64,000 bases of DNA from Pseudogemmobacter bohemicus (GTDB lineage: Bacteria; Pseudomonadota; Alphaproteobacteria; Rhodobacterales; Rhodobacteraceae). The stretch covers positions 725,964 to 789,963 of the forward strand of contig NZ_QNHG01000001.1 in NCBI RefSeq assembly GCF_003290025.1, in the 5' to 3' direction. Position 1 is the stretch's first letter, and each line of letters begins with the position of its first letter. Under the pieces are notes generated by a model. That model searched no databases and was not told the DNA's origin. It was given only the letters and a program-made list of their open reading frames with translations. Of this stretch, positions 43,028-55,995 are shown piece after piece. Made by a program: the position numbers and the translations under genes.

Positions 43028-43150
43028 TGCCCATGAACAATGGTGTGGCTGGATGGCCAGATACGATTCCAGCCGCCCCGTCCTGCTTGCGCAGTGCTTA
43101 CACCGCAAAAGAAGAAGGGGTCAGCTTTTCAGCTAACCCCTTGATCTTAT

Positions 43151-43183
43151 TGGCTCCGGCGGTAGGGGGCGCAGCCGGAGCCA
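43151..43183. repeat. tRNA-Asn 3'-end-like sequence in a hairpin
   Basis: 43151-43167 (TGGCTCCGGCGGTAGGG) is identical to the first 17 bases of the 48-bp attachment repeat at 45766 and 55921. Here it is followed by GCCGGAGCCA (43174-43183), the exact complement of its first ten bases, making a hairpin. It may be an older, degraded attachment site, or a terminator built by chance. Confidence 0.4.
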
Positions 43184-43312
43184 AATTCAAGCGCAAGTTA
43201 TTGATAGTAAACGTGAATCCGATATGCGTCCCTGCGCTTTGTATGGCAGTTTTGTATGGCACTTGTATGGCAGTAGTTTCGGCGGGTTAGATGTCTCCTG
43301 TCTCCTATTACG

Positions 43313-43414
43313 ATGGCTTCTGCTCCACGGGATCGTCAAGCCGTTCCGTGGCGAGACATTCGTTGGCACAGCACCCCCAACGGCCTATGGTTCCGCTACG
43401 AGCATGGGAGATAG
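43313..43414 (+). pseudogene. 33-codon frame, probable C-terminal gene fragment
   Basis: ATG 43313 opens MASAPRDRQAVPWRDIRWHS, then TPNGLWFRYEHGR and TAG at 43412. The tryptophan-rich text looks like the tail of a real protein. There is no ribosome site. It ends five bases before the next gene start, so it may be what remains of an upstream operon partner. Confidence 0.3.
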
Positions 43415-43418
43415 GCGG

Positions 43419-44030
43419 ATGGCCAGCGAGCTGCGTGACACCGATGGGTTTTCCGAGCTGAAGAAGGTCTTGGCTGACTTTCCGCTCCGCAACGGCGAAC
43501 AGGAGTTCGCGTGTGTCGCCGCCGCGTTCCTGAGGCGCCATGGCGACCGCTTCCGGCTGCTGGCCGTCCCCGAGCCGCTGTCGGGGGCCGAGGCCGAAGC
43601 GCTCCGTTCTGTGGGGGTCGCGCCTAACTTGGGGAGTGCGGAAGCGGCACCACTGCTCCAGTCCAAGGCCAATCATGCGGCCCTGGTCGTCACCGCCCTA
43701 CCTATCGCCGAGGTTGCCGGGCGGCTCGGGGTGACGGAAGCCCACCTGCGTCGACGGATTGGCGAGCGCACGCTGTTGGCCGTTCGCGGACCTGACGGGC
43801 GCGGCCTGCGCGTGCCGGCGTTCCAGCTGACCGGGACCGGGGAACTGCCTGGCCTCAGGGTGGTTCTGCGCGCAATCCGGCCCGGCCTGCGTCCATTGCA
43901 GGTGACCGCTTTTTTCGCCACACCGCAGCCCGATCTCGAGGATGCCCAAGGAAAACCGATGGCGCCGGTCACTTGGCTTCTGGCCGGGCATGATCCAGAA
44001 TCCGTGCGGGATCTGGCTAGGGACCTTTGA
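43419..44030 (+). CDS. Putative regulator/antitoxin with HTH and ParS/Xre-like C-terminus
   Basis: A 203-residue protein from ATG 43419, with GGGAG eight bases upstream. A central helix-turn-helix is suggested by PIAEVAGRLGVTEAHLRRRI. The last 35 residues (FFATPQPDLEDAQGKPMAPV, then WLLAGHDPESVRDLARDL) resemble the toxin-binding end of MbcA/ParS/Xre antitoxins. No RES-type toxin lies beside it, so it is either an orphan antitoxin or a regulator. The remaining N-terminal part is unrecognised. Confidence 0.5.
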   Translation: MASELRDTDGFSELKKVLADFPLRNGEQEFACVAAAFLRRHGDRFRLLAVPEPLSGAEAEALRSVGVAPNLGSAEAAPLLQSKANHAALVVTALPIAEVAGRLGVTEAHLRRRIGERTLLAVRGPDGRGLRVPAFQLTGTGELPGLRVVLRAIRPGLRPLQVTAFFATPQPDLEDAQGKPMAPVTWLLAGHDPESVRDLARDL

Positions 44031-44115
44031 CGGCCAAGCACCCGAACCAGCATCGGTCGCCGCCTGCGGGCGGGTCTGGCAGCGGAGACGCTCCTGTAGA
44101 ATAAGGTATCATATT

Positions 44116-44152
44116 TTATCCCTATATTGTCAGATGAGCATATAAGGGATAA
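44116..44152. promoter_or_regulatory. Probable HipB-type operator
   Basis: An AT-rich inverted repeat, TTATCCCTATAT (44116-44127) and ATATAAGGGATAA (44140-44152), lies 30 bases before the HipB-like gene. HipB of E. coli binds TATCC-N8-GGATA; the same half-sites occur here with wider spacing. Autoregulation is inferred. Confidence 0.55.
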
Positions 44153-44182
44153 TATGTGATCCGCATTTAATTTGGACAGCCG

Positions 44183-44491
44183 ATGATCCCCGTTCTCGAC
44201 ACCGCGCCCGATCTCCGCGAACACGTCCGGCAGGCCGCCCGCAACCGGCGCATCGCGCTCGGTCTCACGCAGGCCGATCTGGCGGGACGTTCGGGCGTTC
44301 CGCTCGGCAGTCTCAAGCGGTTTGAGAGGCTCGGCGAGGTCTCGCTGTCCGCGCTTCTGGCCATCGCCGAGGCGCTGGACGCGTTTGAGGGGTTCCGCGC
44401 GTTGTTTCCGCTCCCTGAGGCGCGCAGCCTCGATGAGGTGGAACATCAGGCCAGCCTGCCGAAGCGGGCCCGGCGGAGGGCGCGTGGATGA
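44183..44491 (+). CDS. HipB-like Xre-family antitoxin/regulator
   Basis: A 102-residue DNA-binding protein with one Xre helix-turn-helix at about residues 20-75 (RRIALGLTQADLAGRSGVPL, then GSLKRFERLGEVSLSALLAI). The basic tail ends KRARRRARG. It precedes and overlaps the hipA-like gene by four bases (ATGA), the usual hipBA order with the antitoxin first. The start at ATG 44183 has only a weak ribosome site. Because the partner toxin is truncated, its present role is probably self-repression only. Confidence 0.8.
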   Translation: MIPVLDTAPDLREHVRQAARNRRIALGLTQADLAGRSGVPLGSLKRFERLGEVSLSALLAIAEALDAFEGFRALFPLPEARSLDEVEHQASLPKRARRRARG

Positions 44492-44937
44492 CGGTGCGGC
44501 GGCTCCATGTCTCGCTCGATTTCGGCAATGGCGAAGAAGTGCCGGTCGCGCGGCTCGGCTGGGACGGGGCTGCGCGCCAGGCGGTGGCCGAATGGGATCC
44601 CGGCTTTGCGGCGGCTCCGCTGCCGGTCAGTCCGCTGCTGATCAGGCAACCGGTCGGCCTGCTGCGGGCCAAAGCACGGGCCTTCGGCGATCTTCCTGGA
44701 TTGTTCGGCGACAGCCTGCCCGATGGCTGGGGCCGGTTGCTGATCGACCGCGAACTGGCAGCGCGCGGGCGCGCGGTTATCGACATCACCGATCTCGACC
44801 GGCTCGCCATGGTCGGGCGCGATGGCATGGGCGCGCTGACCTATCGCCCCGAGGACGGCGGTGGCACAGCTTCAGTTGATGGGGGAGGCGCGGACAAAGG
44901 TGTCGTCGCAACAGTCGCCGGCGGAAACGCGCCCTGA
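44488..44937 (+). pseudogene. HipA-like toxin kinase, truncated after N-terminal domain
   Basis: The first ~122 residues match the HipA N-terminal domain (GLFGDSLPDGWGRLLIDREL and LDRLAMVGRDGMGALTYRPE). Full HipA kinases run to about 400-440 residues, with the ATP-binding and catalytic region after this point. Here the frame passes at about 44855-44870 into the antisense of an integrase fragment and stops at 44937. No kinase motif remains, so it should be catalytically dead. Confidence 0.75.
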
Positions 44938-45644
44938 GTGGCATGTGCCGAGTCCGGCTGGTCCTGCAGGAACTCCTCGAAGATGGCGGCGGCCAGCGCA
45001 TCCGCCTCGTCCATGTCGGTGCTGGCACGGTCTGCCATGAGGTGGTGGGCCGCACCTCGCGCGCGAAGCATGATCTGTCGGGCCTGGATCAGGTCTGTCG
45101 CGGAGGGCGATGCCAAAGAGAACTGATCGCGCAACACCCCGGCGATGCGCCGCATCCGCGTGTCGGACCAATAGTCCTGCCGGAAGAGCTCAAGAAAATT
45201 GTCTAGGCGGGCGAGGTCCGTATCTGTCAGATCTGCGGCCCTCATCGCTTCAAGCTCGGCTGCGGACAGGCTGGCTGACCGGCCACGTTCGGCAAGCAAG
45301 CGGTAGGCCTTTGCCGCCATCTGATCGCGGCTCTGGTTGGCGGCCCAGGCATTTTCTTCCCGGTCGTCGCTCTCAACGACTCTGCGGCGCTGGATTCGCT
45401 CAATCTCGTCCCGGATCACCTGATCGAGCAGTTTGCGGGCATTTTCACGTGTAAGGCCGGTATTGATCATGTGTTCGAACAGGTTGTTGCTTGCAACGGT
45501 GACCTTCGCCGCAATGCTGCGCGCGAGCAACGGCTCATTGGTGCGAAGGCTTACCTGCAGGAGGGCACCGCCCAAAGCGGTGGGGAGCCGACGACGCCAG
45601 ACATATGTGGCACCGCGTCTGAATACGAAGTCTGTGATACCCAT
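44841..45644 (-). pseudogene. Integrase remnant, N-terminal half only
   Basis: From ATG 45644 the protein begins MGITDFVFRRGATYVWRRRL, the DUF6538-type N-terminus of a tyrosine recombinase group. It continues through the helical core-binding region (ASNNLFEHMINTGLTRENAR, RLDNFLELFRQDYWSDTR). The catalytic domain with R-H-R-H-Y is missing because the frame runs into hipA. It points away from the attachment repeat at 45766, as expected for the integrase of an earlier element at the same tRNA. Confidence 0.65.
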
Positions 45645-45765
45645 TTGCTTCCGATTTCCGGAACGCGGGGATTTCACTCCGGTGCATCGTGTATGGCACC
45701 TTGGTATGTCACTTCCAGAAATTATCTGGAAAATGCCAATCCTATCAATGACTTGATGTAGGATT

Positions 45766-45813
45766 TGGCTCCGGCGGTAGGGATCGAACCTACGACCAAT
45801 TGATTAACAGTCA
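45766..45813. repeat. Left attachment site, 48-bp direct repeat of tRNA-Asn 3' half
   Basis: These 48 bases are identical to 55921-55968. They cover CCA through the anticodon region of tRNA-Asn but lack the 5' half, so this is not a working tRNA. The flanking TAGGATTT is also shared after one base of offset. It marks the left end of the 10.2 kb element. The 45678-45999 interval holds no gene; TTGCGAGG is repeated at about 45827 and 45838. Confidence 0.9.
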
Positions 45814-45955
45814 CAAAATCCGATATTTGCGAGGCGTTGCGAGGGGTGCCGAGGGTATCCATCTAGTATATTGAAAACACGCTATTTTCATTGTCTGACA
45901 CATTGCATTGCGTTATCGTACGTTGCAAGCGAAAGCGATGCGTGAGACGTAAAAT

Positions 45956-45974
45956 TGTCTGCTATATGTCTGAC
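45956..45974. repeat. 19-bp repeat near left end (possible integrase arm site)
   Basis: TGTCTGCTATATGTCTGAC occurs here and identically at 55834-55852, near the two ends of the element. It holds two TGTCTG units itself. Placement just inside both attachment sites suggests integrase or AlpA binding sites. It also lies directly before the integrase start. Confidence 0.6.
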
Positions 45975-45999
45975 GGCAGACACCGGAGCGAGGTGGCCC

Positions 46000-47178
46000 A
46001 TGTCGCGTGTGAGATTGACGGATAGAGCGGTGGCGGCATTGCAGCCGCAGGAGAAGCGGTATGATGTGTCCGACGCCTTGCGGGTCGGGCTGCGGGTCCG
46101 TGTCGCGCCGACAGGGATCAAGACATGGGTGTTCGAGAAGCGCATCCGGGGCGAAAGCAAGCTGCGTAGCCACACGCTCGGGCGGTTTCCGGCCATCACC
46201 TTGTCCGAGGCGCGGGAGAAGGCCCTGACCCTCGAAAAGGAGGCGATTGAGGGCGTGGACCGCAAGGCCGAGGTCAAGAACCTGCAAACGGTGCGGGCGA
46301 TCCTCGACCGCTACGACGAAATGCACCTAGCCCAGCTTCGGACGGGCCGGCAGCGCCGGAAGCAGATCGAGGTCGCCTTTGGCAACCGGCTGGACGACCC
46401 CTTGAACAAGGTCGAGCGGCGACACCTGCAAGAGTTTATCGACAAGGTGGCAGGCAAAGGGACCAAGGTTCTGGCGAACCGCTACAAGGCGGCAATCAGT
46501 GCGTTCACCGCCTTCGCATGGAAGCGCGGTTACATCGACCACAATATCGGCGCGGGTCTTGCCAAGGCCCCCGGCAAGGAAAAGCCCCGCGACCGATTGC
46601 TGACCCTGAGCGAGGTTCGCGCAATCTATGACGCCGCCGCGCTTCTATCCCCCCTGTGGACGCCGATCATCCGTCTCCTGATCCTGACAGCGCAACGTCG
46701 GGGGGACATCGTGGGGCTGCGTCATTCGGAGATCGACTTTGACAAGCAGCGCATTGACCTGCCGGGGGCGCGGACCAAGAACGGCAAGGCGCACATCGTC
46801 CACCTGTCAGAACCCGCCCTTGAAGTCGTCAACGGCGTGACCCCGAAGAATGACCTGATGTTCACGACCACAGGCACGACCCCGGTTTCAGGCTTCTCCA
46901 AGGTCAAGGTAGAGATCGACAAGCTGCTGCCCGACGATATGGAGCCTTGGACGTTCCACGACTTCCGCACCGCCTTCGCCACGATCATGGCCGAGGGCGG
47001 CGCAGATGAGGGGATCGTTGACCGCATCCTGAACCATTCGGCGAGCGCATCCGCAGCCAGCGCCGTTGCCCGCGTTTACAACCTGTCGGCCCAACTCGAC
47101 AAAAGGGCCATCGTCCTTGATCGCTGGGCCGAGTTGGTGACGAAACGCACCGCCAAGGTGGTGAGCATCGCATCGTGA
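46000..47178 (+). CDS. Tyrosine recombinase/integrase
   Basis: A 392-residue P4-type integrase. The N-terminal arm-binding domain (LTDRAVAALQPQEKRYDVSD, then GLRVRVAPTGIKTWVFEKRI) is followed by a core-binding domain and the catalytic domain with Arg in TAQRRGDIVGLRHSEID, H-x-x-R in FHDFRTAFATIMAEGG, His in ILNHSASAS and the nucleophile Tyr in VARVYNLS. ATG 46000 has GAGG six bases upstream; the frame upstream starts with TTG inside the 19-bp repeat. It lies 187 bases from the left attachment site and probably catalyses integration at tRNA-Asn. Confidence 0.95.
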   Translation: MSRVRLTDRAVAALQPQEKRYDVSDALRVGLRVRVAPTGIKTWVFEKRIRGESKLRSHTLGRFPAITLSEAREKALTLEKEAIEGVDRKAEVKNLQTVRAILDRYDEMHLAQLRTGRQRRKQIEVAFGNRLDDPLNKVERRHLQEFIDKVAGKGTKVLANRYKAAISAFTAFAWKRGYIDHNIGAGLAKAPGKEKPRDRLLTLSEVRAIYDAAALLSPLWTPIIRLLILTAQRRGDIVGLRHSEIDFDKQRIDLPGARTKNGKAHIVHLSEPALEVVNGVTPKNDLMFTTTGTTPVSGFSKVKVEIDKLLPDDMEPWTFHDFRTAFATIMAEGGADEGIVDRILNHSASASAASAVARVYNLSAQLDKRAIVLDRWAELVTKRTAKVVSIAS

Positions 47179-47966
47179 CGCGCCCGTGCCTCCCCCCTGT
47201 GGAAATTATGAAGCAGCGCGTCCGCGAGCGGCTGGCTGAACTTGCTGGCCAGCGCGACGAAGCGCAAATCCCCTTTGATCAACGCCAGCCTCTTGGGCGT
47301 TTTTTCGACCTTGATCCGTTTATGCAGGAAACGGCGCAGATCATTGGCGCGGCGAGCGAAGGCGGTCCGCAAGGAGAGTGGGGGGCAAAGCGGCTATTTC
47401 AGAAATTCTTGTATGGTTATGAGGCAGACATTGAACCCCATTATGGGGTGGGCAACGATCAGGATGCCGCTGAAATCGACGCTCAAAGAGAACGTCTGCG
47501 GGTCGCCCATGTCGGTTATCAACTTTTGGCTATCGCGCAGTTTTCCGAAGGTGCGCAAAACTATCCCTTTATCTATGACCTTGTGGTTCGCTATCTTAAC
47601 GAAATTGACGATTCCGAGTTCCAGATTGATCCTAAGGTAAGGTCCGCGTTTCGGAAGATTGTTCAGTTGCCGCGCCCACAGGGAGCAAGCGGTGCGAAGA
47701 AGGCGACGAATGTAATTCGTGACCTGATTATTATTGATCTGGTTTCAGACCTGATAAAAACTTTTGAAGGTTTGCCAGTCACATTCAGCCGAGCTAAGCT
47801 CGGCAACGAAAACGCTTGTGATATTGTCACGGCGGTTTGGGATGAAGAGTTTAAGTACATTAAGCGGCGTCATGGTACTTCTGTCGTGGTAATAGATCAT
47901 AGGCTAAACGCTGAAAGCGCGGTGCGTAATGTGTGGGAAAAACGTAACAAGAAATCTTCTGTTTAA
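47175..47966 (+). CDS. Hypothetical protein in integrase operon
   Basis: A 263-residue soluble protein. GTG 47175 overlaps the integrase stop (GTGA); ATG 47208 is an alternative start. No family is recognised. It is mostly helical, with FFDLDPFMQETAQIIGAASE, FLYGYEADIEPHYGVGNDQD, NVIRDLIIIDLVSDLIKTFE and FKYIKRRHGTSVVVIDHRLN. Coding moves to AT-richer codons towards its 3' end. Coupling to the integrase suggests a role in the element's life cycle or an accessory trait. Confidence 0.75.
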   Translation: MTRPCLPPVEIMKQRVRERLAELAGQRDEAQIPFDQRQPLGRFFDLDPFMQETAQIIGAASEGGPQGEWGAKRLFQKFLYGYEADIEPHYGVGNDQDAAEIDAQRERLRVAHVGYQLLAIAQFSEGAQNYPFIYDLVVRYLNEIDDSEFQIDPKVRSAFRKIVQLPRPQGASGAKKATNVIRDLIIIDLVSDLIKTFEGLPVTFSRAKLGNENACDIVTAVWDEEFKYIKRRHGTSVVVIDHRLNAESAVRNVWEKRNKKSSV

Positions 47967-48067
47967 GCAGGCTTAGATTTCGTCCCTAAAGTCGTTGTTG
48001 TCGTTATGTGCGACATATGTTTCGGGGCGCTGCATATTGATTTCCATGAGACGCACAAAGGTGTGAC

Positions 48068-48265
48068 ATGGAACAGAATGACCCCCATAGACTAATTCGC
48101 GCCAAGCAAGTTGCAGAAATGACTGGGCTTTCGGTCAGCACCTTCTACGCCCAAATCCGGCGCGGCGTATTCCCCAAACCCTTGCAAACCGGCCCGAACA
48201 CCGTGGCATGGCGCTACAGTGATATTGTCGGCTGGATCAATTCCCTTCAAGAGGTGGCCCGATGA
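48068..48265 (+). CDS. AlpA family regulator/excisionase
   Basis: A 65-residue winged-helix protein (RLIRAKQVAEMTGLSVSTFY, then RRGVFPKPLQTGPNTVAWRY and DIVGWINSL), typical of AlpA. Such proteins activate integrase genes or act as excisionases in P4-like elements and Gram-negative phage-inducible islands. A short inverted repeat, TGTCG-N7-CGACA (47999-48015), lies upstream. Its stop overlaps the next gene start (ATGA at 48262). Confidence 0.93.
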   Translation: MEQNDPHRLIRAKQVAEMTGLSVSTFYAQIRRGVFPKPLQTGPNTVAWRYSDIVGWINSLQEVAR

Positions 48266-49230
48266 ACAACGAAATCCTTCAACGTGTTCGGGTGGTCCTA
48301 CAGGGCAGCACTTCCCTAACGATGGAAAACATCGTTTACCTGATCGGCGAGGCCGAGGGTGAAAGAGATCGCCTCACGCGCGAAATCGCAGCGGACGGTA
48401 AGTTGCTCATCGAGCATACTACCTTGGAAGATCAGTATCCCGAAATCCGTCAACGGATGGAAGGCAACACCGAAAACCGCGACCGTCTCACCCTGTGGCT
48501 GCCCAAGCTGCATGACCTGCAAGCAGAAATGGCGAAGGCCGAACTGGCTGCGTGGCAGGATGGGCGCCATAAAAATACGGGCAAGCGTGCCAAGAACTTC
48601 GACAAGGTGATGGATCAGTATTTCGAGCTTCTGCCGTCCCTGATCGCCGTTCTTCTCGACTACCCTGCGCTGCGGCAGGAGATCAATGTGTTCAACAACC
48701 CGGCCCAGCCGCATACGCTGGTCAATCCGAAAGATCGTCTGGTCAACAGGTATCCGCGTATCAGCATCTCGACGCCCGATGCGGTTATCAGGGGCTTGAA
48801 GCTCGTTGATCGCGCTGGCACCACCGTTTACTCGAATCCTGACCCGTTTGATCGTGGTCCGGTCACGATGGTCGGCCCCATGCAAGCAGCCGCGCAACCT
48901 GTGGTCGCCGGACACTTTGCCTCGGTCGTCGCGGACTACGAGCGGGAAAAGGATCAGTTTGACGCCGCACAGTACCAGTATGGCGAGTGGGAGCGCGAGG
49001 CAGCGCACACCGGCCTGACCGTCGAGAAGGTGGCGATGCAAAACGGCCTTACGGACGGTCAGTTCAAGACTGTGTTGGAGCGTGCGACTGGCAAGCCGCT
49101 GGAGCAGGCTAAGTCGGCGGTTGTTTCGAGGATCAATACCGTTGTCGCCGCTTGCCCAGCGAGCGGCCCCGATGCCGCAATCAAAGCTCAGATCGAAAAT
49201 GCAAAAGCGGCCATCGGTGCGACCTCCTGA
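48262..49230 (+). CDS. Hypothetical protein between alpA and the primase gene
   Basis: A 322-residue protein, translationally coupled to the AlpA gene. Family not recognised. The first 130 residues are helical and charged (YLIGEAEGERDRLTREIAAD, LHDLQAEMAKAELAAWQDG). A central part holds DPFDRGPVTMVGPMQAAAQP, and the C-terminal part has YEREKDQFDAAQYQYGEWER. It may act in replication or regulation, judging only by position. Confidence 0.75.
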   Translation: MNNEILQRVRVVLQGSTSLTMENIVYLIGEAEGERDRLTREIAADGKLLIEHTTLEDQYPEIRQRMEGNTENRDRLTLWLPKLHDLQAEMAKAELAAWQDGRHKNTGKRAKNFDKVMDQYFELLPSLIAVLLDYPALRQEINVFNNPAQPHTLVNPKDRLVNRYPRISISTPDAVIRGLKLVDRAGTTVYSNPDPFDRGPVTMVGPMQAAAQPVVAGHFASVVADYEREKDQFDAAQYQYGEWEREAAHTGLTVEKVAMQNGLTDGQFKTVLERATGKPLEQAKSAVVSRINTVVAACPASGPDAAIKAQIENAKAAIGATS

Positions 49231-49350
49231 CATAGAGGCACCGAGTCGATCTAAAATTTACCTTCGGACAGAATGGGTTATGTTCCGGCGGGTGTCTCGC
49301 GCAGACATATGCTGGACATTCTCCCATTCTGCCGGGCTTTCGAGGCAGCA

Positions 49351-52110
49351 ATGACCGATCTGAATTTCCACGCGGGTGACGTGTCTCCATCCTCCGCAGC
49401 GCCCACGGGTGTCCCTGATCGTTACAGGCGCATCCCGCCCGAAATGCGAGACATCCCCTGCTGGATGGTCGCGCGGGACAAGAAGCCGTATAGCGTCACG
49501 CCCAACACGCTGATGCAGGGCAAGGTCGTCGTCTCCGACTTCCATGTCAATGCGCACAACCCGGCCAATCACTGCACGTTCGATATGGCCGTGCAGGCGA
49601 TTGCGGCAGACGCGACCCTTGCACTCGGCTTTATGATGGGCGTTGGCAATGACCTTGTCTGTGTTGATAATGACGACCCTGCGAAGGCCCGCCCTGAGCA
49701 TCAGGATGAAGCGCGCGAACAGCAACGACTTATCCGGGGCCATTTCGGCCCGATGACCTATAGCGAGGTTTCGCAGTCGGGAAACGGCCATCACTTCATT
49801 GGCCGGTGGCCCAATGCCCCGGCAGGCTTGAAAAGAAAGAAGCAGGCCAAATTCCAAGTCGAACTGCTCGTGCAGCAATTTGTGGTCATCACGGGTACAC
49901 AGCCCTATGGTGAAAGCACGACGACCGGGATTGGCGATATTTCGAGCGACTGCGCGGCCATGTATCGAAAGATGATGGCGGATGAAAGTCCAGATGGGCA
50001 GCCCCACACCGCCCCACCTGTGGTCGCCTCAATCACCCCTGCCCAATGCAGCGAGAAACGCCTTCTTTCTCGTCTGGGAGGGGAATGGGAACTGGGGCCA
50101 GCCTTCCATGATGGCAACAAGGCGCATAATTGGTCTGATACCCTATTCGGCTTCTGCTGCTCTGCTGCGGCGATCACCACAGACGGCGAAATGGTCTATC
50201 GTGTCATTGCCAAAAGCGGGTTTGCGCTTCGGGCTGACGATAAGGGTGGGGAGGTTCGGCTTGATAAGCTGGCTCGGACCTTCAAGGATACTTGGCAAAA
50301 GGCTCTGGTGGAGAAGGAACCGGAGCGTCAGAAGGCAGCATTCGCGTCCGACGATGAGATCGACTTTGATCGGCAATATACGCGGGCCGATCTCTGGCAG
50401 GACGAGCATAAAGCCGTCTTGAACCAGTATGTCATTCATCTGGTCCGCAAAGAAGCAGAACGAATGATCCGTGATGAGTTGCATAGCAATTCATCCGCCG
50501 AAGTCATCGCTCCGCTTTTCCTTTATATCTCCGAAAGGGAGCGGGGAACGCTCGCCAATCACTATGCCAAGGTTGAGCAGCATGAATTGGCATCGGCTTG
50601 CACTGACGCGCAAATCAAATCCCTTCACTTGGGTGAAGACATTTCCGTGCCGCAACTCGACCAGTACATCAGCCAAGCGGTTCAGTGGGTTCACCGGGAT
50701 CGGAGTTTCGGCTACCTTAAAGATTGGTTCGATGCCCGGTTCTACATCGTCAAGAACCACTTTGGAAAGCCAGTTGTGTTTCAGGTAGATGATCCAGATG
50801 CACCTGAACAACTGCTTAGCGACTTCCAGAAAGCCTTTTCTGAGCATGTCTATTACGGTGAAATAGACCACAAGAAAGATGAGATCGAGAAGAAACCTTT
50901 CGTTGGCGCGTGGATCACAACAGCGGGCGACCATCAGTATATCGGCGCTCGTATGATGTATGAAACGACCGAAACCACTGTGAACACCTCGACCGGAAGG
51001 ATCAAGAACATATTTACGGGATTTGCCACCGATGCGGCCACGAGTCTGATTGAAGCCGACAATGATTGGCCACTCATATCCGCGCACCTTTGGCATGTCA
51101 TATGCTCCGAGGATGGGCCGAAGGCGGATTATCTAATCAGGTATTTGGCGCATCTCGTGCAGCGTCCTTGGGAGCTTCCAAAAGCTGCAATCGCAATCTA
51201 TTCTTCGGAGCAAGGTTCGGGTAAGTCGCTGCTTTACAACGTGGTCAAGGAGTTGGTTGGTGCGAAGTACTGCTTTGAGACAAGTGACCCAAGACATATC
51301 TTTGGGCGTTTCACCGATGGCATGATGGAAAAGCTAGTTATTCACGGGGCGGAGATGCTGGCCGCGGCGGATGACGCCTCCAATGCGAGGGCAAAGAACA
51401 TCATCACTGATCCAAGCATTTCCATTGAGGGGAAGAACAAGAAAGTAATCACCGCAAAGAATTACACCCGGCTCTTTTTGACGACAAACAAGCCCCACGC
51501 AGTTCAAGTGGAAGCGAGTGACCGCCGATTTCTTGTCCTGCGGGCATCGCCGATCTATGGCCCAACTCATGAGTTCTGGAGCCGATACTGGCCTAATGAT
51601 CAGACTGGGTATAGTGGCTATCGCGGTGAACTCCCCGCGTTCATGCGCTTTCTTCTCGGGCTGGACATTTCGACTTTCAATCCTCGGGATATTCCGCAGA
51701 CGGTCGAAAAGGGAGAGCAAAAGCTGCTCTCGCTGGCTGGCGCGGACCAAATCCTGTTTGCGATCCTGTCAGAAGGGCAGTTGCCCATTTGGTCGGAGCG
51801 TCAGGCGCACAGCACCCACGGTGATGTTTGGGTCACGCCGATTTCGGAATGGAAGCGGTGGCTCAAACTGCAACCGACGATAAAGGCTGTCCCGGCGCAG
51901 GTCGGGACGATCTTCAAGTCGATCCTAGTCGTAGCAAACAACACTATGCGTATGAGCATCGGCGGGATCGAGAAGGGGCAGATTCCTGCGTCCTATCACT
52001 GCACTTGCCTGCCGCCCTTGGCTGATGCCCGCCGCCGCTTCTTGGAACACCTGAACATCGAGCACTACAACTGGGGCGACGGCCCGGAAGTCGAATGGGT
52101 GCGGGGCTGA
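49351..52110 (+). CDS. Primase-polymerase with C-terminal SF3-type helicase domain
   Basis: A 919-residue replication protein. The N-terminal region carries archaeo-eukaryotic primase signs: the catalytic acidic motif NDLVCVDNDDPAKARPE near residue 100 and SQSGNGHHFIGRW near 143. The C-terminal part is a DUF5906/D5-like helicase with Walker A SSEQGSGKSLLYNVVKEL near 620, then GRFTDGMMEKLVIHGAEML and a sensor-like NYTRLFLTTNKPHAVQV. ATG 49351 has GAGG five bases upstream; ATG 49273 is possible. It probably starts replication of the excised element, perhaps at the sites near 55.0 kb. Confidence 0.88.
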   Translation: MTDLNFHAGDVSPSSAAPTGVPDRYRRIPPEMRDIPCWMVARDKKPYSVTPNTLMQGKVVVSDFHVNAHNPANHCTFDMAVQAIAADATLALGFMMGVGNDLVCVDNDDPAKARPEHQDEAREQQRLIRGHFGPMTYSEVSQSGNGHHFIGRWPNAPAGLKRKKQAKFQVELLVQQFVVITGTQPYGESTTTGIGDISSDCAAMYRKMMADESPDGQPHTAPPVVASITPAQCSEKRLLSRLGGEWELGPAFHDGNKAHNWSDTLFGFCCSAAAITTDGEMVYRVIAKSGFALRADDKGGEVRLDKLARTFKDTWQKALVEKEPERQKAAFASDDEIDFDRQYTRADLWQDEHKAVLNQYVIHLVRKEAERMIRDELHSNSSAEVIAPLFLYISERERGTLANHYAKVEQHELASACTDAQIKSLHLGEDISVPQLDQYISQAVQWVHRDRSFGYLKDWFDARFYIVKNHFGKPVVFQVDDPDAPEQLLSDFQKAFSEHVYYGEIDHKKDEIEKKPFVGAWITTAGDHQYIGARMMYETTETTVNTSTGRIKNIFTGFATDAATSLIEADNDWPLISAHLWHVICSEDGPKADYLIRYLAHLVQRPWELPKAAIAIYSSEQGSGKSLLYNVVKELVGAKYCFETSDPRHIFGRFTDGMMEKLVIHGAEMLAAADDASNARAKNIITDPSISIEGKNKKVITAKNYTRLFLTTNKPHAVQVEASDRRFLVLRASPIYGPTHEFWSRYWPNDQTGYSGYRGELPAFMRFLLGLDISTFNPRDIPQTVEKGEQKLLSLAGADQILFAILSEGQLPIWSERQAHSTHGDVWVTPISEWKRWLKLQPTIKAVPAQVGTIFKSILVVANNTMRMSIGGIEKGQIPASYHCTCLPPLADARRRFLEHLNIEHYNWGDGPEVEWVRG

Positions 52111-52236
52111 CCCTGCACATCCCCGAAGACGCGCTGTGGGGCGGTTGCAGAGCGTCCATGCTTCGCAGCGCCCCCGCCTGTCTCACATGGCCTCCCGCGC
52201 TGTAGCGACCCCCGTCACGCCAAGCCGCCCCGCACA

Positions 52237-52262
52237 CGCGCTGTAACCTGTATTACAGCGCG
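52237..52262. terminator. Strong hairpin after the primase gene
   Basis: A perfect 10-base stem, CGCGCTGTAA with TTACAGCGCG, closes a six-base loop in the 237-base gap between convergent genes. There is no T-run, so it may act as a Rho-assisted or processing element. The surrounding DNA is rich in GCGC. Confidence 0.5.
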
Positions 52263-52347
52263 TTCTGCGTTCGCTGCGCAGTGGGCGCGTCGATGCGAGA
52301 CAGCGCGTATGGGGCGGTATTTTTGGGGCTGCGAGCGGCGTCGATGC

Positions 52348-53169
52348 TCACTCACATTTTTGGTCAGAATAGCCTTCTGGCCGACCGATGTATCTGGTGT
52401 TTGTGTCCAGCAAGGGAAGCTCTACGGCGTCGAAGGCGTTAATCATTCGGGTTTCGACAAAGGTTTTTCCGGCCTCACCCATTGGCCCGTGATAATAATA
52501 CGATAACGACTTTGTCTCTCCGGGTTCAATGCCGCCGGAAACAGAAAAAGAACCGTCATCTTTATTGATTGGAACCGATCTTCCTTCTTGCTTCACGACA
52601 TACTCAAACTGAACCCCGCTGATAGCAAAGGCGAGATTGTTTTTAATATCGAATTCCAGATTGTTCGAGTAGTCACCCTTCTCTACTCGAATATTGGAGA
52701 CCACAATCCTATCATTCAAGCAATTCTGCTGATCCAAGAGATTGTCTTTGTTTTCTTGGTTTTCTATTTCAGCGATTTCGTCTGCTATAGCTTTTGATAC
52801 TTCTTGAGAGGAAATCAGAGTTGCCTTCGCCTTCACCTCTTCGATTGTGACGCCGGACATCCATACGCTCATGCCATCATAGAATTTATCGCCAAGCTGG
52901 CCCATAGCCATGAATTGGGGCAACCCCGGCTCGGCGGCACCAGTCACAGGGTGTCTCTCCATAAGGATTGCCAGCAGGGCTTTCCCAAATGCTTCCTTGT
53001 CAGCCTGAGGCATGTCGCTTGTTGCGTCCTTCACTGACTCCTGCATCGCTTCTATGGATGAAAAGTCCAGGTCGCCGCTGCCGCCCCACAGCCAAGCCAT
53101 TGCAGGGCTGGAAAAAATCAATGATGCAACGAGTGTAATTGCGGCGGATTTCTTGGAAAATATCGACAT
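52348..53169 (-). CDS. Exported protein of the element, unknown function
   Basis: A 273-residue protein with a clear Sec signal peptide (SIFSKKSAAITLVASLIFSS, then PAMAW). The mature part begins WLWGGSGDLDFSSIEAMQES, contains a helical hairpin (SSQEVSKAIADEIAEIENQE) and a C-terminal immunoglobulin-like strand region (VVSNIRVEKGDYSNNLEFDI, FSVSGGIEPGETKSLSYYYH). That layout resembles DUF6694-type envelope proteins, but this is a weak recollection. An envelope protein on such an element could alter phage entry or host fitness. Confidence 0.75.
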   Translation of the reverse strand: MSIFSKKSAAITLVASLIFSSPAMAWLWGGSGDLDFSSIEAMQESVKDATSDMPQADKEAFGKALLAILMERHPVTGAAEPGLPQFMAMGQLGDKFYDGMSVWMSGVTIEEVKAKATLISSQEVSKAIADEIAEIENQENKDNLLDQQNCLNDRIVVSNIRVEKGDYSNNLEFDIKNNLAFAISGVQFEYVVKQEGRSVPINKDDGSFSVSGGIEPGETKSLSYYYHGPMGEAGKTFVETRMINAFDAVELPLLDTNTRYIGRPEGYSDQKCE

Positions 53170-53271
53170 GCTTATGCGTCCCGGCTGTTATCTTGCCATG
53201 GTGCGTTCGCATGGGATTGTGGCATTTGCGGGCAGAAAGGGTGGCGCGTCTCGGGATTGTTTCCTAGGTTG

Positions 53272-53586
53272 TCACGCCATCAGGGCGACCACCGGGTTGC
53301 GGGGGTTTTCCTCGCCCGCGACCGGGAGCGAATAGAACTGCTCAACGCTGCTGAGGATGACCCGCATGTGTTCCTCGCTGACGGGCTGCGGGACGGTGCG
53401 GCACATGCGCTTCACGCCGTTGACGCGATAGGTCAGCTCCCCCGCCCATGTCCAGCAGCTTGCCTGACGGCAGTGGTGGGCCATGTCGTCATAGAGCGCC
53501 CGCCACTTGTCGAAAGCGGCTTGAGCTTCGGGGGTCAGCTTCGGCTCGTAGGCCGCGAAGTCGAGTTTGATCACTTGGAGAGCCAT
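53272..53586 (-). CDS. Hypothetical protein (104 residues)
   Basis: A small soluble protein beginning MALQVIKLDFAAYEPKLTPE and holding DDMAHHCRQASCWTWAGELT and QPVSEEHMRVILSSVEQFYS. No family is recognised. Its start lies inside the 3' end of the upstream gene (16-base overlap), so the pair is coupled. A Cys-Trp-rich patch is notable. Confidence 0.65.
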   Translation of the reverse strand: MALQVIKLDFAAYEPKLTPEAQAAFDKWRALYDDMAHHCRQASCWTWAGELTYRVNGVKRMCRTVPQPVSEEHMRVILSSVEQFYSLPVAGEENPRNPVVALMA

Positions 53587-54224
53587 GTCGCGTCCTTGTC
53601 ATAGATGCCGAGGTGTTCGACCATCGTGAAACGGCCAGTCGGGGAATAGTTGGAGGGATCGTCCCGAGAAAAGATCAGCGGTTCGGTCTGCATCATCGTC
53701 TTGAGAGCGTTATGGAGCAGCACCGTGTGGGTCTCGTCGCTGGCTCCGGCCCCAAACCGCTTCACGGCCAAGGGGAGCGCCCGCTTCACCACTGTGGACG
53801 CCTTCACGGCCTTATTCTGCGCAAGCAGGGCGTCAAGGATGCAGCCCGGATACGAATTGTACCGATCAAGGGGATCGACAGCGCGGCCGTAATCAAGCGG
53901 CTGCATCGTGTCGCCTGTCTCTGGCTTCCACAGGTAGGCATGAAACTTGATCGTTCCGGCCCGACCGTCAAAGGCATAGATCAGCGCATGATCCAGCCCG
54001 TGGGTGTCAGGGTGTTCTTGGCAGTATCGCCACATGCTGCCCAAGGCATCGTGAAACTCTTCGGTGGAGTACCAAAGCCGCCCGTCGAGCAGGTTAGATT
54101 GCGGCATATTTTCAATCGCGGATGGGCCATACCATTGTATGCCGCCCATCAATCGAAAGTGCGCGGCGGAATGGTCGAGCGTAACCCGGAACTGGTGTTC
54201 TTCAATTTTGACGCCGCTTGCCAT
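53571..54224 (-). CDS. Hypothetical protein (217 residues)
   Basis: ATG 54224 has AGGGGA eight bases upstream; a GTG start at 54263 would add 13 residues. The protein contains HFRLMGGIQWYGPSAIENMP, LIYAFDGRAGTIKFHAYLWK and FSRDDPSNYSPTGRFTMVEH. It has no membrane segments and no recognised domain. It heads a two-gene unit with the 53272 gene and is divergent from the gene at 54374. Confidence 0.68.
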   Translation of the reverse strand: MASGVKIEEHQFRVTLDHSAAHFRLMGGIQWYGPSAIENMPQSNLLDGRLWYSTEEFHDALGSMWRYCQEHPDTHGLDHALIYAFDGRAGTIKFHAYLWKPETGDTMQPLDYGRAVDPLDRYNSYPGCILDALLAQNKAVKASTVVKRALPLAVKRFGAGASDETHTVLLHNALKTMMQTEPLIFSRDDPSNYSPTGRFTMVEHLGIYDKDATWLSK

Positions 54225-54373
54225 ATTCAATTCCCCTGATTGCGACGATGTTAATTGACCCACCCATATCGTTCAAACGGTAATTTCGACATATCCTGGT
54301 GATTAAGATTGTGGGAGATTGTGCAAATGTCGACTTTGCGTATAATCGGGTGAATTACGATTGCGAGGGCGAT

Positions 54374-54766
54374 ATGAACGATCAGGACGAGGAGCGGATT
54401 ATTGCTGGCCTGACGCTTCGGGCTAAAGGCGGTGACGTTGACGCCGCCAAGCTGCTGTTTGTCGAAAAGGGCAAACGTATCCGACCTATCAGGTTTCAGG
54501 AGTGCCAGACACTCGACGAACTCAAGAATGAGTTTGAAAGCTATATGGGCATGGAGAATGTGACCCATGCTGAATCCGATCACGCGACCAAAGCGTTTGA
54601 TCGGCTTTTCAAGTTGATCACCGCTCGGGACACATCTCGCAAGCAGGCCGAGGCGGCATTGATCAATACTTCCGGCCTGTTGCTCGTTCCGATGGCTGAT
54701 CCGCTCAATTGGGAGGTCATGGCCGAGAAATCTCAGGCCGCGCTCAAGGAGCACGCTCGGACGTAG
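54374..54766 (+). CDS. Hypothetical helical protein (130 residues)
   Basis: ATG 54374 has GAGGG four bases upstream; the frame upstream to 54299 is less likely. The product is charged and helical (MNDQDEERIIAGLTLRAKGG, ELKNEFESYMGMENVTHAES, AFDRLFKLITARDTSRKQAE). It carries no known motif. It is divergent from the 53571 gene and is the last gene before the non-coding end, so it could be a regulator or an origin-binding partner. Confidence 0.65.
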   Translation: MNDQDEERIIAGLTLRAKGGDVDAAKLLFVEKGKRIRPIRFQECQTLDELKNEFESYMGMENVTHAESDHATKAFDRLFKLITARDTSRKQAEAALINTSGLLLVPMADPLNWEVMAEKSQAALKEHART

Positions 54767-54971
54767 CGCGAAGCGTTAATGGCATCCACAGTGTGGATGG
54801 CGCAAAGATCAGGGGGCTTCGGCCTCCTTTTTCATGGCAGATCGGGCTTAACGAGAAAATGGTTCATGGGCAAGATGGCGCGGAATTGAGGTAGTGTTGC
54901 GCAACGCATAACGAATAAAGCCGTATCACGAAGATAACGAATAAGTGCCCAGATGCCCTATGTGCCGACCC

Positions 54972-55184
54972 TGTTAGAGATTCCATAATGTCAAAATCTA
55001 ACACAGAACCCATTGATTTTAATGATCGAATTAGTGGTTTTTCGATTTGTTAGACTTTGTTCGGAACCCTATTTTATTTTTTCACCACCTCTATTTTTCC
55101 TATATTTAATAATTCCAATCTAACAATCTTACAGAATTGATTATATTGAGATATTTTCGATAGGATTATTATGGGATTGTTAGA
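54972..55184. promoter_or_regulatory. Candidate replication origin with five alternating 7-mers
   Basis: TGTTAGA lies at 54972, 55048 and 55178, and its complement TCTAACA at 54997 and 55119, so the orientation alternates strictly. Most copies share the wider context GATTGTTAGA. The AT-rich setting, beside a primase-helicase element end, fits a replication origin with protein-binding iterons. Function is inferred. Confidence 0.55.
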
Positions 55185-55833
55185 AAGGTGCAAGAGGGCT
55201 GGTTTCAAGGCTGGTTTTGCTGTTAGCCCTATGCGGGTCCGACCTGACTTCCCTGTATCGCTCAAGGCCCGATCAGCCGCACGGCCCGCATGTGGGCGCT
55301 GAGGGGGTGGGCGTGATGCGATGCGCGGGGGCATGCTTGATCGTCGTCGGCGTGGGAGAGGTGCGGTGCTGCCGTGCGTCTCGATGCAGGGCGAGGGACG
55401 CGCGTTCGCGCGTGAGGGCCGTGCGCTGTGTGTCGTGCATCGTCGTCGCGCTGTGACGCGGATTTGCGCGCGTGTCGTGGGGCGTCGCATGTCGTGCGTC
55501 ATGCGAACGTCAACGCCGCTGCAATCCAGGTATCACGTCATATCTGATTCTGGCGGTCGGCTGTCTGCTTGACTGTCCGCTGTGCCGAATCCGATTGTTT
55601 CGACCTTTGGTGGTGCGGGGCGCTCGGTGGTCGTGTATGATCGAGGCAGGCTGATGCGACCCGAGGCCCCCCCTAGGTAGGTGGGGGCGGGGGCAGGCCC
55701 TCCCCGGATACTCGACTTACATATGCGGCGGTTTTTCGTCCGGGTTTTCTGCTGGTTCAGGATTTTCGTAGACAGAACAGCGTCTTACGGGGTGTCTGAC
55801 CGGGCCGTGCCGCCACCTGTGGCCGCTCCCGAA

Positions 55834-55852
55834 TGTCTGCTATATGTCTGAC
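55834..55852. repeat. 19-bp repeat near right end (possible integrase arm site)
   Basis: TGTCTGCTATATGTCTGAC, identical to 45956-45974, lies 69 bases inside the right attachment site. Confidence 0.6.
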
Positions 55853-55869
55853 TGACCTTGAAATGATAC

Positions 55870-55891
55870 GGGGTGGCGTTTCCGCCACCCC
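55870..55891 (-). terminator. Hairpin downstream of tRNA-Asn
   Basis: A perfect nine-base stem, GGGGTGGCG with CGCCACCCC, and a TTTC loop. It lies 30 bases past the 3' end of the minus-strand tRNA-Asn and may end its transcript, although there is no T-run. It belongs to the element and would replace the original chromosomal terminator. Confidence 0.5.
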
Positions 55892-55920
55892 TGTAACTCT
55901 TTGAAATCTTTTAGGATTTC

Positions 55921-55995
55921 TGGCTCCGGCGGTAGGGATCGAACCTACGACCAATTGATTAACAGTCAACTGCTCTACCGCTGAGCTACGCCGGA
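55921..55995 (-). tRNA. tRNA-Asn (anticodon GTT), integration target
   Basis: A 75-base cloverleaf on the minus strand. Acceptor TCCGGCG pairs with CGCCGGA, the D arm has GCTCAGCGGTAGAGC, the anticodon loop CTGTTAA gives GTT at 55963-55961, the T loop is TTCGATC and CCA is encoded. Its 3' 48 bases (55921-55968) are the right attachment site, so the element restores the gene on insertion. Confidence 0.97.

Follow-up and report, generated by a model that had tools for sequence, protein, structure and literature searches.

We describe an integrative element of 10.2 kb that occupies positions 45766-55968 of a 64-kb window of the Pseudogemmobacter bohemicus genome (G000 C1:725964-789963; genome size, 5.6 Mb). 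On balance, and with some reserve, we regard it as a phage-satellite-like element of Rhodobacterales, belonging to a satellite lineage that resembles the phage-inducible chromosomal minimalist islands (PICMIs) of Vibrio. It is probably able to excise and to replicate itself.

The element at tRNA-Asn and its relatives

The element is bounded by a perfect 48-bp direct repeat, with a left copy at 45766-45813 (+) and a right copy at 55921-55968 (+) that lie 10,155 bp apart from start to start. The right copy coincides with the 3' 48 nt of an intact tRNA-Asn(gtt) gene (55921-55995, −). With up to 3 mismatches allowed, a 45-bp part of this attachment (att) repeat is confined to these two positions within the window, and 100 shuffles of the window gave no occurrence. 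The element is present as a single copy in its genome, and its G+C content in 2-kb bins is 0.53 to 0.58, against mostly 0.60 to 0.68 outside, where two left-hand bins reach 0.58 to 0.59. Its genes are ordered int, B, alpA, D, and primase on the forward strand, F, G, and H on the reverse strand, and I on the forward strand, followed by 1.15 kb with no recognized gene.

Family scans of the nine encoded proteins against Pfam, PHROGs, NCBIfam, and PADLOC, with E values up to 1 and with gene I scanned from a longer start, back a function for three of them: a P4-type tyrosine integrase (int, 46000-47178, +; 392 amino acids [aa]; Arm-DNA-bind_3 and Phage_integrase), an AlpA excisionase/regulator (alpA, 48068-48265, +; 65 aa; PF05930, 1.2e-13), and a primase-helicase (49273-52110, +; 945 aa; DUF5906, 8.8e-19). 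In the same scans, no structural, large-terminase, or conjugation family was matched, and the products of genes B, D, G, H, and I were not convincingly assigned to any family. A first-pass annotation made from the DNA letters had called the perfect repeats with one copy inside an intact tRNA-Asn, the P4-type integrase, and AlpA, all of which are borne out. It had also seen no structural, terminase, or conjugation gene, which agrees with the scans apart from a weak terminase-small-subunit match of gene I (see below). It had the family of the primase-helicase right; its length of 919 residues corresponds to an inner start of the 945-aa frame. The five genes that it left unrecognized remain so if taken as B, D, G, H, and I, and a sixth, gene F, is a member of phrog_7468 (4.7e-15).

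Searches for relatives recovered a primase match at 1e-10 in 28 of 394 genomes of the family, that of the host included. Outside the host, only the match in Fertoeibacter niger RG-N-1a (G412) is near full length (residues 31-942); there, an element of 13.8 kb (L054 3142-16985) likewise lies at tRNA-Asn. A scan of the genome collection with gene I returned three loci, namely, those of Gemmobacter caeni DSM 21823, F. niger, and an uncultured alphaproteobacterium (on the same contig as the G526 match). The G. caeni element, also at tRNA-Asn, is split into a left (L089) and a right (L074) part, which we infer to be one element. Both sister elements have the identical 48-bp att sequence and keep the core int-B-alpA-D-primase ... 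G-H-I around differing cargo, so that the same gene order does recur at tRNA-Asn in related genomes, where the first-pass annotation had proposed to look for it. The locus of the uncultured alphaproteobacterium (L072) is a third, partial element, whose primase end is 58% identical to that of F. niger; it has a NucS_C protein between the primase end and gene H and methylase/restriction-type genes beyond gene I, followed by tRNA-Thr, and its integrase end falls off the contig. Gene H was found in only the host and G526 among 390 genomes of the order, and genes B, D, and F each returned only the host among 146 genomes. A scan of genome contigs with a primase peptide recovered no relative, which says little on distant relatives because the peptide was a specific one. 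Two other Rhodobacterales loci (L017 and L018) have an integrase-like open reading frame (ORF) and a DUF5906-matching primase, named partly by reading; terminase-like genes are present in L116 and, by likeness, in L017 and L018, and these may represent another type of satellite or prophage.

The history of the site was traced in other loci of the genus, of which nine were fetched besides the host's own copy and seven (all but L122 and L124) were inspected. The 48-bp att sequence at tRNA-Asn is 100% identical in six of the seven and 96% identical over a slightly longer stretch in the seventh (L121). Three of them (L125, L126, and L127) show an empty-site junction, in which the sequence corresponding to window positions 43103-43167 directly adjoins tRNA-Asn, the last 17 bp of this segment (from 43151) being the start of the att core; in the remaining four, homology starts at 55902-55921, at the edge of the tRNA, with no match to the left flank. 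As the empty-site junctions join 43103-43167 to tRNA-Asn, the site has probably been filled at least twice, by an older insert that is now 43151-45765 and then by the present element. The older remnant contains the partial att copy of 17 bp, a gene pair resembling hipB/hipA (by reading) that ends abruptly at 44937, and a gene (44841-45677, −) for a short DUF6538-domain protein that may be the N-terminal portion of an integrase. In G. caeni, an extra copy of the att core (G714:C3:400014-400066; L117), at which no tRNA gene was found, is possibly a trace of another insertion, and in G008 (L123) a tandem pair of tRNA-Asn copies lies beside the same flank.

Probable excision and replication modules

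The integrase is 92% identical to its counterpart in F. niger and 91% identical to that in G. caeni. Its start at ATG 46000 is likelier than one at TTG 45955 because the 392-aa version aligns end to end with the F. niger protein. A 19-bp repeat, TGTCTGCTATATGTCTGAC, lies at 45956-45974 (+) and again at 55834-55852 (+), set inward from the left and right att copies by 0.14 and 0.07 kb, respectively; we regard the two as putative left and right integrase arm sites. In the F. niger element, this 19-mer recurs unchanged at either end, and the G. caeni element has the variant TGTTTGCCATATGTTTGC at both ends, one per contig. Left and right sites are thus equal to each other in all three elements, with the sequence altered in one (G. 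caeni). Gene B (47175-47966, +; 263 aa), 63% identical in G. caeni and 33% in F. niger, overlaps int by 4 nt (47175-47178). An overlap of int by 4 nt was seen in five of eight int-primase loci with mechanically called ORFs (the window, L089, L054, L015, and L061), next to one of 22 nt in L056 and none in L063 and L065, in a count that leaves out L017 and L018, both without overlap. AlpA is 86% identical in G. caeni and 85% in F. niger. Gene D (48262-49230, +; 322 aa) in turn overlaps alpA by 4 nt and is 80% identical in G. caeni and 29% in F. niger; against sequence profiles of the PDB, its product gave only chance-level matches (best E value, 0.064). Going by these families and by the example of PICMI115 (see below), the integrase would act on the 48-bp core with its paired arm sites, and AlpA, aided by B, would serve as the directionality factor, releasing a circle of 10,155 bp.

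Among solved sequences, three distinct ones that are named primase match the profile of the primase-helicase (7e-20 for two of them and 1e-7 for the third). In a pairwise alignment with the F. niger protein, residues G648, G650, K651, and S652 and residues D132, D134, and H174 are kept, which we take to be the Walker A and primase motifs, respectively. The putative replication origin (54972-55184) is an AT-rich stretch of 213 bp with five iterons, TGTTAGA in either orientation (TGTTAGA/TCTAACA), which are all of the copies in the window. At least five copies were reached in 2 of 100 whole-window shuffles, a comparison that ignores their clustering, and five copies within a 300-bp stretch were reached in none of 20,000 first-order simulations. 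Some 7-mer was equally frequent in such a stretch in 114 of 3,000 simulations, and for this reason the weight of the motif comes mainly from the relatives. The first-pass annotation had called this an origin-like noncoding end; the five-copy cluster agrees with that call.

The relatives were compared by a global alignment of the window with G. caeni, in which a per-bin identity of about 50% means unrelated sequence. The bins of the primase body (49366-51965) are 50 to 66% identical and those of the AT-rich iteron block (54976-55275, about 300 bp) are 49 to 67% identical; the remaining bins are at 74 to 94%, except for two in gene B (67 and 68%) and those where the primase ends and the cargo slot begins (70 and 73%, with 0% for the last 55 bp). 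The primases concur, with that of the window being 37% identical to the F. niger and 34 to 35% identical to the G. caeni protein and the latter two being 68% identical to each other. So do the motif counts in the window, G. caeni, and F. niger, respectively: TGTTAGA, 5, 0, and 0; TGTTACG, 0, 5, and 5; and GTTATG, 1, 5, and 4. Simulated counts reached those observed for TGTTAGA in the window and for GTTACG in both relatives in none of 5,000 simulations each, for motifs that were picked post hoc. The primase and the iteron block have been replaced together between relatives. Because both are replaced with respect to G. caeni while most else is 74 to 94% identical, the simplest reading points to the primase as an initiator recognizing the iterons and to the block as its origin, in which case the primase-helicase would start replication at the TGTTAGA iterons. 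This joint replacement also provides a ready test of the sequence recognized by the primase.

Cargo slot and the G-H-I block

Gene F (52348-53169, −; 273 aa) is the cargo of the element; its product is weakly DUF6694-like and starts with what looks, by eye, like a signal peptide. It had no tblastn match in the F. niger (L054), G. caeni (L089), or L072 loci. Elsewhere, tblastn recovered four phage records (22 to 27% identity), all annotated as lipoprotein, and in the two of these phages that were inspected the relatives of F lie in capsid/tail gene clusters; it also matched 12 plasmid records, 7 of which are annotated as DUF6694 family lipoprotein. Our guess is that F-like genes block superinfection. 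Where F would be, the F. niger element encodes a pair of DNA methyltransferases together with a DUF4238 protein and a PLD protein that has an NgoFVII-type domain; the cargo seen in G. caeni is a DUF4145 protein, the middle of that element being absent from the two contigs. These differences support the exchangeability of cargo between the primase and the G-H-I block, a slot that holds F here and, in F. niger, genes for restriction-modification and a DUF4238 protein.

Beyond the slot, gene G (53272-53586, −; 104 aa) is common to both sister elements (95% identity in G. caeni and 63% in F. niger), as are gene H (53571-54224, −; 217 aa; 83% in G. caeni, 63 to 64% in F. niger, and 32% in L072) and gene I (54374-54766, +; 130 aa; 90, 72, and 52%, respectively). 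The start of gene I is most likely 54374, since the F. niger frame holds stops upstream of this codon. Altogether, 20 different proteins, most of them from these elements, went through the PHROGs scans, as did four fragments. In these scans, residues 58-129 of the L072 ortholog of gene I matched phrog_5334, a terminase small subunit family, at 5e-6; the window protein scored 0.15 as a whole and 0.059 for its C-terminal 73 aa, a G. caeni fragment scored 0.049, and three of the four C-terminal fragments matched the same region of phrog_5334. This suggests, mainly via the one ortholog, a packaging role for gene I, perhaps as a terminase-small-subunit mimic. Structure predictions were poor (mean pLDDT [predicted local distance difference test] of 58.8 for I and 49.0 for H), and matches to PDB sequence profiles were at chance level only (best E values, 0.15 for I and 0.16 for H). 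Nine weak matches of gene I (E values of 0.009 to 0.08) were dismissed as chance, and the likeness of its C terminus to a 203-aa protein of G129 (1.4e-4 among three sequences) was too short to build on; that protein belongs to an island (L094 4561-9867) with integrase-like and primase-like ORFs (by reading). That gene I might resemble DUF5681 is a guess, and a literature search found nothing on it.

Within the noncoding end, a conserved segment (55443-55816) is a candidate packaging or regulatory site. It is 92% identical to 375 bp of noncoding DNA in a remnant at tRNA-Thr in G008 (L014 7482-11544), whose integrase-like ORF is of a different type (by reading) and which also holds the end of a related primase; int itself had no tblastn match there. 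An RNA reading of the segment was dropped, as only 3 of 118 predicted pairs are changed on both sides among three sequences. Copies of the element would most likely be packaged by a helper phage; the suggestion we make is that gene I may act as the terminase-small-subunit mimic and the conserved segment as the packaging site.

Rival readings and comparison with known systems

Several results weigh against a phage satellite. In IMG/VR, no relative was recovered with the primase, B, or D, for which the scans used specific peptides and say little on distant relatives, or with H or I in alignment scans; an alignment scan with int yielded only four loci there, at 28 to 41% identity. In the phage collection, primase identities are 24 to 29% among the matches listed (25 of 150), and D, H, I, and the conserved segment have no match; 37 bp of that segment have no exact match in IMG/VR. 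The terminase-small-subunit likeness is confined to the last ~70 residues of gene I and is weak in the window copy; F. niger gene I has no phrog_5334 match, and a search with phrog_5334 matched nothing in the host genome and 2 of 120 relatives. No helper phage was found with the one large-terminase model tried, a gene I profile matched no ORF near the Terminase_6N genes of the host, G412, and G715 (best E value, 0.81), and sequence searches found no virion-borne copy or excised form. Related DUF5906 genes are also found on small non-mobilizable plasmids. That no helper, no virion-borne relative, and no packaging gene beyond doubt was found also speaks for the main rival, a plasmid-like integrative element. 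Such an element would excise, use its own primase to replicate, and be spread by transformation, by mobilization by other elements, or by gene transfer agents, parasitizing no particular phage. This rival finds a parallel in pMNOD07 (NC_011890), a circular 9.8-kb non-mobilizable plasmid with a helix-turn-helix gene, a 306-aa gene, and a DUF5906 primase in the same order, on which no integrase is annotated and where the primase is the one protein of the element to find a match (28%). The host also has a strong Terminase_6N match, about as long as in two relatives, which may belong to a gene transfer agent. We nevertheless hold this rival to be rather unlikely, since the plan of int, 4-nt overlap, alpA, one gene, and primase is that of an experimentally proven phage satellite, relatives of F lie within structural gene clusters in both phages inspected, and gene I gives a terminase-small-subunit signal, weak as it is.

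Of the satellite or autonomously replicating rhodobacterial island with unknown cargo that the first-pass annotation had envisaged, a mobile element with its own replication genes and swappable cargo stands on the sister elements, the empty sites, and the primase/iteron replacement. The phage-satellite part is plausible, with the PICMI gene order, the int overlap, and gene I in its favor and no helper, packaged, or excised form found. The claim of novelty is in line with the literature searched, which, with most subscription papers outside its reach, gave no description of the lineage. More tentatively, the element may represent a distinct satellite family of Rhodobacterales, with a PICMI-like core outside Vibrio, a primase and origin swapped as a set, a shared G-H-I block, a defense cargo slot, and gene I as a short terminase-small-subunit mimic steering the packaging motor of a helper to the conserved segment. 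Descent from a prophage that lost its structural genes is very improbable: phage-like families do include the integrase, AlpA, the primase, and F, but the core reading frames are intact, the scans recognized no structural remnant, and the compact set recurs at tRNA-Asn in two other species with different cargo. Membership in the P4 or PICI (phage-inducible chromosomal island) families in the strict sense is also improbable, if less so. The element shares with P4-like satellites a P4-type integrase at a tRNA, an AlpA-type regulator, a primase-helicase, and a putative origin, P4 itself using a tRNA site; however, its primase scores only 31.1 bits with the P4-type primase model TIGR01613 (cut-off, 108.7), and sid, psu, and delta, the capsid-size and transactivation genes of P4, were not recognized in the Pfam and PHROGs scans. 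PICIs have int, a primase/replication module, an origin, and sometimes terS, with alpA in those of Escherichia coli (PMC6092414). By that description, the int, alpA, pri-rep, origin, and lack of structural genes of the Gram-negative PICIs have counterparts in the element, whose terS is doubtful (a phrog_5334 match in one ortholog and a conserved segment with no phage match).

The closest comparison is with the PICMIs (PMC10803314). PICMI115 of Vibrio chagasii consists of int, iolg (which overlaps int by 4 nt and is needed for excision), alpA, up1, and prim, with a cargo hotspot after prim; the PICMI model combines int with an AlpA (PF05930/PF12728) and a primase (DUF3987/DUF5906); and a gene overlaps int in 21 of 35 subfamilies, through ATGA in 14. 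PICMIs are phage induced and packaged as concatemers in helper capsids. The element likewise unites int, alpA, and a DUF5906 primase, its int shares 4 nt with gene B, and it has one gene (D) between alpA and the primase, cargo after the primase, and no capsid genes; the correspondence of B and D to iolg and up1 is one of position. In contrast, integration next to fis is called a hallmark of PICMIs, complete examples of which have been reported from Vibrio genomes alone, and the element lies at tRNA-Asn, which is why we stop short of classing it as one. It further differs in its occurrence in Rhodobacterales rather than Vibrionaceae; in its size (10.2 kb, and 13.8 kb in F. niger, versus a PICMI average of 6.7 kb); and in the extra G-H-I block that it shares with its sisters. 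A PICMI-like plan in Rhodobacterales, if true, would mean that the minimal plan recurs beyond Vibrio, and the lineage, one member of which has restriction-modification cargo, would offer a system for studying helper choice.

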